Shown here in pieces: positions 4,039 through 64,000 of a stretch of DNA of 64,000 nt. The notes under the pieces are model-generated. The model was given only the letters and a program-made list of their open reading frames with translations, had not been told where the DNA came from and searched no databases. The translations under genes and the position numbers were made by a program. Every line of letters begins with the position of its first letter. Position 1 is the stretch's first letter. This DNA is from Idiomarina sp. X4 (GTDB lineage: Bacteria > Pseudomonadota > Gammaproteobacteria > Enterobacterales > Alteromonadaceae): assembly GCF_002808045.1 (NCBI RefSeq), contig NZ_CP025000.1:2046001-2110000 (forward strand). The letters run 5' to 3'.

Positions 4039-4287
4039 ATGGTAACCATTCGTTTACAACGTGGCGGTGCTAAAAAGCGCCCCTTCTACCAAATGGTAGT
4101 TGCTGACAGTCGCCGTTCACGCGACGGTCGTTTCATCGAGAACGTAGGATTTTTTAACCCGCTAGCTCGTGGTCAGGAAGAAAAACTTCGTGTTGATGTT
4201 GACCGCATCGAGCACTGGGTAGGCAAAGGCGCACAATTATCTGAGCGCGTTGCTAAGTTAGTTAAAGATGCAAGCGCTGCGGCGTAA
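4039..4287 (+). CDS. rpsP: 30S ribosomal protein S16
   Basis: 82 residues, the usual length for bS16, beginning [17 protein letters not shown] and including the conserved [15 protein letters not shown]. The frame is open four codons further upstream, but GAGGAA at 4029-4034 is well placed for the ATG at 4039. It is the first gene of rpsP-rimM-trmD-rplS, which joins ribosome assembly with tRNA modification. Confidence 0.98.
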
Positions 4288-40410: not shown

Positions 40411-40487
40411 GGAGTGGTAGTTCAGTTGGTTAGAATACCGGCCTGTCACGCCGGGGGTCGCGGGTTCGAGTCCCGTCCACTCCGCCA
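40411..40487 (+). tRNA. tRNA-Asp (GUC), first copy
   Basis: A 77-base tRNA with acceptor arms GGAGTGG (40411-40417) and CCACTCC, an encoded CCA (40485-40487), the T-loop TTCGAGTC, and anticodon GTC at 40445-40447. dnaQ followed by aspV is the E. coli order. Confidence 0.97.
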
Positions 40488-40512
40488 TTTAGTACATCCC
40501 CCGAATTTTTGC

Positions 40513-40589
40513 GGAGTGGTAGTTCAGTTGGTTAGAATACCGGCCTGTCACGCCGGGGGTCGCGGGTTCGAGTCCCGTCCACTCCGCCA
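40513..40589 (+). tRNA. tRNA-Asp (GUC), second identical copy
   Basis: A second 77-base copy, identical to the first, with CCA at 40587-40589. The spacer between the two is 25 bases. The pair is transcribed from the single promoter at 40340. Confidence 0.97.
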
Positions 40590-62033: not shown

Positions 62034-63620
62034 ATGAGTAAAGATTTTATTCTGCCCGATATCGGCGAAGGGATCGTAGAGTGCGAAATCGTTGAGTGGC
62101 TGGTAGCCGAAGGCGACGAAGTTAAAGAAGATCAGCCCGTTGTTGAGGTCATGACTGACAAAGCCATGGTTGAGATACCGGCGAAAGACGACGGTGTGGT
62201 TGAAAAGCTGTATTACCAAAAAGGCGATATTGCTAAAGTCCACGAGCCGTTATTCCGCATTAATGCTGCGGGCGATTCAAGCGAAGCTGCTGAAGAAAAA
62301 ACGGCTGAGAAAGAAGCGCCAAAATCTGACAGTAAGCCAGATAGTAACCAAGCAGCTGGCGGTGGAACCACTGACTTTATTTTACCGGATATCGGTGAAG
62401 GTATTGTTGAGTGTGAAATCGTTGAGTGGTTGGTTGCTGAAGGCGATGAAGTGAAAGAAGACCAACCAGTGGTTGAGGTTATGACCGATAAAGCCACGGT
62501 TGAAATTCCAGCGAAAGATGACGGTAAAGTCGTTAAGCTGTACCACAAAAAAGGCGATATCGCCGAAGTACATAAGCCTTTATTTGCCTTGCAGCCAGCC
62601 GGCGGCGTTCAGGCTTCAGGCTCCGGCGAGACTGCTTCAGGCAGCGCTTCGCAAAACAATGCAGAGTCTAAGCCGCAGGCAGCTACAAAAGCAGAAGCTG
62701 AGCCACCTGCGAAAGCACGCCAGGGTAAAGCGATTGCCAGTCCGGCAGTACGTCGCTTAGCTCGCGAGAATGACATTAATATCGCTGACGTTTCTGGCTC
62801 TGGTAAGAAAGGTCGTGTCTTGAAAAAAGACATTGAAGCCTTCAAGTCGGGTGGTCAAAGTGCTGCAACCAGCACGGACAGCAAGCCGACTCAGCAGCCA
62901 GCAGCGACTAGCGGCGGCACGCGTACCGAAGCTATTCGTGGTGTGAAAGCGGCAATGGCTAAGCAAATGATGAACTCGGTCAGCACCATTCCTCACTTCA
63001 CTTATGCCGATGAGTTCGACGTTACGAACCTGATTGCGCTGCGTGAAAAGTTGAAAGAGCAATACAAAGAAAAAGGCGTACGCTTAACTGTCATGCCGTT
63101 CTTCATTAAAGCTCTGTCGCTGGCACTAAAAGAGTTTCCGGTAATGAATGCGCAGGTGAACGAAGATTGCACAGAAATTACTTACTTCGATGACCACAAC
63201 ATCGGTATGGCAGTCGATACCAAAATTGGCTTGTTAGTGCCTAACGTAAAGCAGGTACAGAACAAGAGCATTATCGATGTGGCTAATGAAGTAACTCGTT
63301 TAACGCAAGCTGCTCGGGAAGGCAAAGTACCTCAGGCTGACATGAAAGGCGGTACTATTAGTATCTCTAACATTGGTGTTATTGGCGGTACGGTGGCAAC
63401 ACCTATCATTAACAAGCCAGAAGCAGCCATTGTCGCCTTAGGTAAAGTGCAGGAGTTACCGCGCTTTGACGAAAACGGCAATGTGGTAGCCCGTAAGATA
63501 ATGACGGTAAGCTGGTCAGGCGACCATCGTATTATCGACGGCGGTACCATTGCTCGTTTCAACAAACTCTGGCAGGAATACCTCGAAGACCCAACCAGCA
63601 TGCTGGTTAACATGGTCTGA
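62034..63620 (+). CDS. bkdB: Branched-chain 2-oxoacid dehydrogenase E2 with two lipoyl domains
   Basis: 528 residues. Two lipoyl domains (about 3-76 and 113-186) carry lysines Lys43 and Lys153 (VMTDKA). A peripheral subunit-binding domain (about 234-270) and the acyltransferase domain (about 300-528) with His498 and Asp502 (GDHRIIDGG) follow. It transfers the acyl group to CoA. The E3 gene (lpd) is not in the window. The two lipoyl domains are nearly identical in protein but differ at many synonymous sites. Confidence 0.95.
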   Translation: MSKDFILPDIGEGIVECEIVEWLVAEGDEVKEDQPVVEVMTDKAMVEIPAKDDGVVEKLYYQKGDIAKVHEPLFRINAAGDSSEAAEEKTAEKEAPKSDSKPDSNQAAGGGTTDFILPDIGEGIVECEIVEWLVAEGDEVKEDQPVVEVMTDKATVEIPAKDDGKVVKLYHKKGDIAEVHKPLFALQPAGGVQASGSGETASGSASQNNAESKPQAATKAEAEPPAKARQGKAIASPAVRRLARENDINIADVSGSGKKGRVLKKDIEAFKSGGQSAATSTDSKPTQQPAATSGGTRTEAIRGVKAAMAKQMMNSVSTIPHFTYADEFDVTNLIALREKLKEQYKEKGVRLTVMPFFIKALSLALKEFPVMNAQVNEDCTEITYFDDHNIGMAVDTKIGLLVPNVKQVQNKSIIDVANEVTRLTQAAREGKVPQADMKGGTISISNIGVIGGTVATPIINKPEAAIVALGKVQELPRFDENGNVVARKIMTVSWSGDHRIIDGGTIARFNKLWQEYLEDPTSMLVNMV

Positions 63621-63631
63621 GATAACGGAAG

Positions 63632-63759
63632 AGCCAGAAACTAAGAGTTAGGAAAGTTAAGAAACACGCCGTGAACCCTTCCTTGGGGGCTTGAGTGACG
63701 CCATCCTTGGCGTCACACAGTTTCTTAACTTACGCCTAACTCTTTTTTTGTTTCTGGCT
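63632..63759. repeat. Compound inverted repeat A (large hairpin with inner hairpins)
   Basis: Three nested pairs of exact arms (63632-63641 with 63750-63759, 63643-63652 with 63735-63744, 63654-63665 with 63720-63731) make a stem of about 32 base pairs. Inside, GTGACGCCA (63695-63703) pairs with TGGCGTCAC (63708-63716), and a weaker CCCTTCCTTGGG lies at 63676-63687. No coding frame is present. It probably belongs to an intergenic repeat family. Confidence 0.85.
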
Positions 63760-63799
63760 ATCTACATCTGCGTTCAGTAAGTTAAATAAAGCTAGCAGA

Positions 63800-63955
63800 T
63801 CCTACGGATTGTGGGCGTAGCGCCTAGAGTTAAAACCCTCTGATACAGGAGTGTCGAAGGCCATGGATGGCCTTCGTCAAGCCCTCATGGATGAGCTTGT
63901 TGCGTCTCCTGTATCAGAGGGTTTTGACTCCAAGCGGAGCACGCTATCCGTAGGA
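63800..63955. repeat. Compound inverted repeat B (large hairpin with two inner hairpins)
   Basis: Outer arms TCCTACGGAT (63800-63809) and ATCCGTAGGA (63946-63955) enclose a 25-base stem with one G-T pair (63827-63851 with 63906-63930). Inside, CGAAGGCC (63855-63862) pairs with GGCCTTCG (63869-63876), and CTCAT with ATGAG at 63884-63895. Both inner loops contain CATGGATG. Together with A it fills the 380 bases after the E2 gene, which hold no gene. Confidence 0.85.
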
Positions 63956-64000
63956 GCTCCACCAAGCTTAACACTTCCTTTCCCCTTATTTTCTATAGCT

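Follow-up and report, generated by a model that had tools for sequence, protein, structure and literature searches.

A palindromic repeat of Idiomarina sp. X4 that may be a YPAL-like mobile element with a putative twin CsrA-type site in its RNA

Elements A and B downstream of an E2-like gene

The window analysed here is a stretch of 64,000 nucleotides from Idiomarina sp. X4 (contig NZ_CP025000.1, positions 2,046,001 to 2,110,000, forward strand). Close to its end lie two compound palindromes, A and B, which sit between an ORF that, judging from its sequence, probably encodes an E2-like dihydrolipoamide acyltransferase and a member of the endonuclease/exonuclease/phosphatase gene family, whose start (position 4042 of locus L066) is just beyond the window. 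The features are listed below with the basis of each call in brackets. The GGA strand is the one on which the hairpin tips read GGA, and R1 is a covariance model built from 48 aligned copies of the repeat.

62034-63620, plus strand: upstream gene, presumed E2-like ORF of 528 aa
63632-63759, GGA strand minus: element A, of B's design, A subtype, loops AAGGAT and AAGGAA (fold, R1 match)
63743-63749, plus strand: run of seven Ts in the stem of A (sequence)
63800-63955, GGA strand plus, the strand of the E2-like gene: element B, palindromic repeat, B subtype (sequence, fold, R1 match)
63800-63809, plus strand: outermost 5' arm of B, pairing with 63946-63955 (fold, repeat scan)
63827-63851, plus strand: 5' long arm of B (P1), pairing with 63906-63930 (fold, double changes)
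63855-63876, plus strand: hairpin H1 of B, loop ATGGAT at 63863-63868 (sequence, fold)
63878-63899, plus strand: hairpin H2 of B, loop ATGGAT at 63887-63892, with a two-base bulge (by eye, fold)
63906-63930, plus strand: 3' long arm of B (repeat scan, fold)
63946-63955, plus strand: outermost 3' arm of B (fold)

The original prediction had placed at 63800-63955 a compound element with nested arms around two inner hairpins, and such an element was indeed present there. Its outer arm pair (10 bp) lies outside the core common to copies, while the long arm pair (25 bp, with one T.G at 63831/63926) includes an exact 20-bp arm (63832-63851 with 63906-63925). For uniform random sequence of 64 kb, the expected number of perfect 20-bp repeats with a loop of at most 100 is about 6e-6, in agreement with the claim that this arm is improbable by chance. 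The two inner hairpins had been proposed to share a core, and CATGGATG was found in each tip (63862-63869 and 63886-63893); it occurred 5 times in the window, as compared with 1.5 expected by chance, a number reached in 3 of 100 shuffles. The folding energy of B was -54.1 kcal/mol as DNA (z -12.3) and -93 as RNA (z -11.4), and none of 200 shuffles equalled either value.

B had been described as the second element of A's design. We found that B and the minus-strand reading of A aligned across the whole core, with identical hairpin order and spacer. When the window was scanned by script for B's design, nothing beyond these two appeared. R1 matched B with 104.2 bits (L066:3833-3926) and A with 81.9 bits (L066:3647-3740, minus strand), these high scores being obtained by construction because R1 was built from copies of both. 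The independent Rfam model of Ysr224 (RF02770), a Yersinia sRNA, matched A with 36.5 and B with 20.7 bits, both below its cut-off of 70 and on the strand opposite the GGA strand. A, which is antisense to the upstream gene, may act as its local terminator. Elsewhere in the window, two tandem tRNA genes (40411-40586) had equal scores and identical sequence in Rfam alignments.

We compared this locus among 18 congeners, as had been suggested for the flanks. A copy was found at the end of the E2-like gene in 10 of them and none in the fetched stretch of the other 8; the two of these that were inspected, G008 and G014, had ordinary terminators at the gene end. B had the orientation of the upstream gene in G000 (the X4 genome itself), G011, G015 and G016 and the opposite one in G004, G006, G007 and G017; its inner part was lost in G002, and in some relatives it lay within the arms of A. 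In the long arm of B, aligned over 8 genomes, 97.6% of the cells were paired (reached by 0 of 500 shuffles), and pairing fell to 40-46% when the partner was shifted by one column. Double changes were seen in 5 of the 25 pairs, as many being reached in 8 of 500 shuffles. The original prediction had counted on other copies or on compensatory changes in related genomes, and both were found.

A dispersed family with a common core

A DNA search of 40 genomes, including that of strain X4, gave matches in 24, in some of which only the query's coding end was hit, and indicated that a 62-nt core recurs at many places in the genus Idiomarina. Alignment of 48 of the 62 distinct copies revealed two subtypes and 31 predicted pairs, 25 of which showed at least one double change. 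The genome-wide search that had been advised for hairpins with long arms, performed with R1, disclosed a dispersed family with at least 16 copies in the X4 genome, several of them from R1's own alignment. R1 matches were found in 35 of 185 genomes of the class Gammaproteobacteria (35 of 177 genera), and copy counts are lower bounds because at most 22 candidates were scored per genome. Across the phylum, 19 of 249 genomes were positive, 18 of them in the Gammaproteobacteria; the remaining one had an E-value of 7e-4, near chance over 249 genomes, and we therefore rejected spread outside the class. A pattern scan of public genomes gave at least 120 stretches, and Marinobacter, Methylotuvimicrobium, Aquisalimonas, Saccharospirillum and Chromatiales were among the matches listed. 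Spread by phages was also rejected, as one exact pattern gave 0 matches among viral contigs.

In the genome G287 (5.1 Mb), the H2 motif occurred 247 times in exact form (124 and 123 on the two strands) and the reversed pattern not at all. The first ten copies there were all on the plus strand, but 100 of the 247 were listed and the listing favours this strand, so that a replication-strand bias was rejected. In another genome (G580, L360:1788-3152), we noticed a 227-bp unit repeated six times in tandem, every repeat containing a single copy of the element and, by eye, an apparent REP palindrome; this array of twelve GGA-type hairpins in 1.4 kb resembles a CsrA sponge RNA.

By eye, distant copies shared the order long arm, YGUC, H1 with an NGGA tip, GUCR, AGC, H2 (YACANGGANGU), UUYAC, GCGU and long arm, and no shared sequence was seen beyond the arms. 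The sequence of the arms varied among copies, with pairing kept. The H2 tip was GGA in 164 of 172 non-redundant copies, with an A two bases 5' of it in 163 of these 164 (middle base G in 87, T in 61, A in 8 and C in 8), and the H1 tip was GGA in 161 of 169, both sets being found with R1, which favours such tips. Among 82 copies found with patterns that avoid H1 (65 near-duplicates and 5 edge copies were left out), 67 had a GGA tip in H1, versus 246 of 1479 shuffled hairpins. The two GGAs were 22-25 nt apart in 160 of the 161 copies in which both were located (15 of 176 were not found), a spacing for which the model alignment itself favours a fixed length. The family has the paired A-N-GGA hairpin loops that are a feature of the CsrA/RsmA type. 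Its conserved part is a core in which a long paired stem surrounds two A-N-GGA-tipped hairpins, about 23 nt apart.

The constrained strand and the link with CsrA

An RNA stem tolerates G.U but not A.C, and the two are swapped on the opposite strand. In the arms of 97 pattern-found copies, read on the GGA strand, we counted 85 G.U and 24 A.C (p = 3.5e-9, an optimistic value because copies share ancestry). The patterns used for this set lie outside the arms, the arm score penalises all mismatches alike, and 31 short-arm and 25 near-duplicate copies were left out. G287 contributed 10 copies with 19 G.U and 1 A.C, leaving 66 versus 23 without them. This test replaced one with a narrower anchor, which left out 35 of 81 copies and gave 17 versus 7 (p = 0.064). 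The arms of 154 model-found copies had 60 G.U and 15 A.C. When the 97 copies were divided by placement, G.U:A.C was 14:2 for sense, 16:0 for convergent, 18:5 for divergent, 22:13 for antisense and 15:4 for unplaced copies; the excess was thus weak in antisense copies (p = 0.18 in this set; 21 versus 8, p = 0.02, in the model-found set). A cruder count from model alignments gave G.U:A.C ratios of 56:15, 55:21 and 13:2 in arms and of 5:2, 14:35 and 3:6 in H1. The surplus of A.C (35, of which 32 are A opposite C) over G.U (14) in H1 of far copies is probably due to the loop-closing A-Y position. That G.U so clearly outnumbers A.C on the GGA strand indicates that the RNA of this strand is the form under constraint, a conclusion that is well supported and least clear for copies antisense to their neighbours.

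As to placement, 120 far matches comprised 23 in tandem sense, 28 in tandem antisense, 22 convergent, 9 divergent and 4 at edges; a further 34 lay within called ORFs, some of which may be spurious (20 copies in ORFs of more than 200 aa, 29 with the GGA strand coding). When element-spanning ORFs were ignored (113 matches), the numbers were 27 sense, 39 antisense, 23 convergent, 13 divergent and 11 unplaced, and the pattern set gave 20, 23, 19, 16 and 19, respectively. In none of these three sets were copies clearly biased towards the sense strand of genes. The 92 matches in the genus Idiomarina, in which orthologues are counted repeatedly, were 16 sense, 27 antisense, 37 convergent and 1 divergent. 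A run of five Ts followed the element in 2 of 174 cases on the sense side and in 7 of 174 on the antisense side, as compared with a background of 7 and 6, indicating no enrichment. The stem followed by a T-tract of an intrinsic terminator is thus not a trait of the family, although a T-tract is present at A. Because neither a clear sense bias nor an enrichment in T-tracts was found, a 3'UTR device or a terminator is too simple a description of the element: we rejected the former as sole function on the lack of bias, and the latter as general function on the T-tract counts. One element pair (L079:803-1201, G001) was found near four tRNA genes arranged in tandem, of which the fourth is cut by the locus end.

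The CsrA consensus is RUACARGGAUGU, and CsrA sites have A-N-GGA loops. H2 of the A subtype and of distant copies matches this consensus closely, and the twin tips most likely form a putative CsrA clamp. The X4 genome has one CsrA. The protein was found in 159 of 185 class genomes. Of the 35 element-bearing genomes, 32 had it, and those without a CsrA hit (G047, G108 and G139) are 75, 88 and 67% complete. Among genomes that are at least 90% complete, CsrA was present in 27 of 27 with the element versus 119 of 135 others (one-sided p = 0.046), an association that, like the G.U test, ignores kinship. There was no clear excess of CsrA paralogues in element-bearing genomes. This co-occurrence is compatible with a role of CsrA and does not prove it.

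Sponge RNAs of the CsrB/RsmZ type are single sRNA genes and, unlike the element, not dispersed mobile repeats. They share with it the repeated GGA hairpins, of which G580 has twelve in its six tandem copies, and paired GGA hairpins are described as the CsrA site (PMC4333381). TwoAYGGAY RNA (RF01731) has two AYGGAY-tipped hairpins inside an outer stem on the same strand, but differs from B in its junction and stem lengths. It is predicted to bind CsrA (PMC4333381) and has been rated as a probable RNA that is probably not cis-regulatory (PMC2864571). B scored 27.6 bits with RF01731, below the cut-off of 43, and a search of the X4 genome with this model, which recovered 0 of 14 controls, gave no match. 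When 40 element-holding loci were compared with Rfam, tRNAs were the sole matches over cut-off, indicating that the family is unrecognised by Rfam at its cut-offs in these loci.

Mobility and possible explanations

Copies come and go between species, invert and nest, and the conclusion that the element is mobile is therefore well supported. Empty and filled sites were also seen at two further loci; the flanks of the compared sites were too divergent to define a target duplication, and no clean one was seen. Of 30 loci read in G287, many held near-identical palindromes of about 160 bp that start with TATACC and end with GGTATA, while others were of another subtype or cut. In this genome the repeat is thus short, with inverted ends and many near-identical copies, as expected for a MITE; the ends differ in other lineages. 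The outermost arms look site-unique by eye, which fits with dyad-symmetric targets, as in YPAL, or with later arm correction during replication. In the X4 genome, five divergent pairs, in which the partners are less than 250 bp apart, account for 10 of the 16 copies, and four of these pairs join the A to the B subtype.

YPAL, or RU-2 (De Gregorio 2006), is described as a repeat of about 168 bp in Yersinia and Erwinia carotovora (PMC2229807, PMC2759123). It is reported to be intergenic and mobile, to target sites at or beside dyad symmetry with target duplications of 3-26 bp, and possibly to affect how stable upstream transcripts are (PMC2229807). Compared by eye and by folding, with no E-value, the printed Y. 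pestis copy of RU-2 has the core of the element in the same order: a hairpin with an AAGGAT tip, CTCGAGCC, a ACATGGATGT hairpin and TTTACGGCGTC, with arms around. YPAL and the element also have in common the empty and filled sites in related genomes. In contrast to a unit with sequence shared throughout, the element has arms that vary in Idiomarina and other genera, its copies are often paired head-to-head, and the family spans the class. Resemblance to REPs and to CGTC- and GTAG-tagged palindromes lies in the dispersed intergenic hairpins, the head-to-head dimers and the occurrence of some within longer palindromes (PMC3733652). REPs are, however, single hairpins of 20-40 bp, while the element has three stems, about 130-160 bp and conserved tips. 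Among the matches listed, we found no literature linking the family to YPAL or describing it in Idiomarina.

We consider it an evenly balanced proposition that B is a YPAL-like, MITE-like mobile palindrome whose constrained GGA-strand RNA carries a putative twin CsrA-type site. The element RNA would be made by read-through from the neighbouring gene or from the other strand and would then fold, one CsrA/RsmA dimer could clamp both GGA tips, and the joined transcript might be protected or exposed by this clamp. The element itself would spread as DNA, into or beside dyad-symmetric sites, and its RNAs could together titrate CsrA as a distributed sponge. A broader version, which we put forward tentatively and with some doubt, is that palindromes of this kind spread across the class by carrying the putative clamp, selection acting on the element's own RNA in any orientation. 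Each insertion would add a decoy, so that genomes with hundreds of copies would hold a distributed, heritable sponge that shifts the Csr set-point and rewires host transcripts. The analysis brings YPAL of Yersinia and the orphan RNA of the TwoAYGGAY type, which have been described separately, into one class-wide mobile family, and if a mobile repeat does seed CsrA sites, the number of copies would be a new means of tuning a global regulator.

It is also conceivable, if rather unlikely, that the repeat is purely selfish DNA. RNA would then play no role, and the hairpins with their GGA tips would be recognised by a transposase that works on single strands or cruciforms. The high copy number, the inverted ends, the nearly equal use of both orientations and, by eye, the palindromic arm extensions unique to each site agree with this, and tyrosine transposases are presumed to mobilise GTAG REPs (PMC3733652). 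Yet this would not account for the strand-specific surplus of G.U relative to A.C seen in the arms, nor for a core kept across lineages with seemingly unrelated ends, and no dedicated transposase was recognised beside copies among the few neighbours viewed, which included one IS110-type gene. An improbable alternative is a structural 3'-end device, either a bidirectional terminator or an mRNA 3' stabiliser, for which the long stem alone would matter. Tip conservation exceeds the needs of such a stem, and the T-run counts at background level argue against it. The preponderance of convergent over divergent copies in Idiomarina (37 versus 1, with repeated orthologues) and in the far model-found set (22 versus 9) is in its favour, but pattern-found copies are almost balanced (19 versus 16). 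The T-tract at A, the ordinary terminators found there in two element-free congeners and the possible effect of YPAL on the stability of upstream transcripts (PMC2229807) also speak for it. It appears very improbable that every copy has a promoter of its own and works as an independent small RNA gene: a simple consensus scan found no sigma-70-like promoter in 63400-64000 and, by eye, copies have no common sequence beyond the arms, even though divergent copies retain their G.U excess (18 versus 5) and the sRNA Ysr224 matches the antisense strand of the core, below its cut-off.

A few genes were found between or beside copies. An IS110-family transposase gene was present at L071:5669-6781 (G004), identified by the Pfam domains Transposase_20 and DEDD_Tnp_IS110, and at L077:8024-8347 (G006), identified by matching first residues only; its placement is as if the insertion sequence targeted the element. 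A ParE-like/Phd-like gene pair lay between element partners at L111:1410-2024 (X4 genome, at about 698 kb) and L112:107-709 (G006), the match being weak and below Pfam cut-offs for L111, the one tested. A cytochrome P450 gene (L062:4867-6033) was located between two element copies in the X4 genome.
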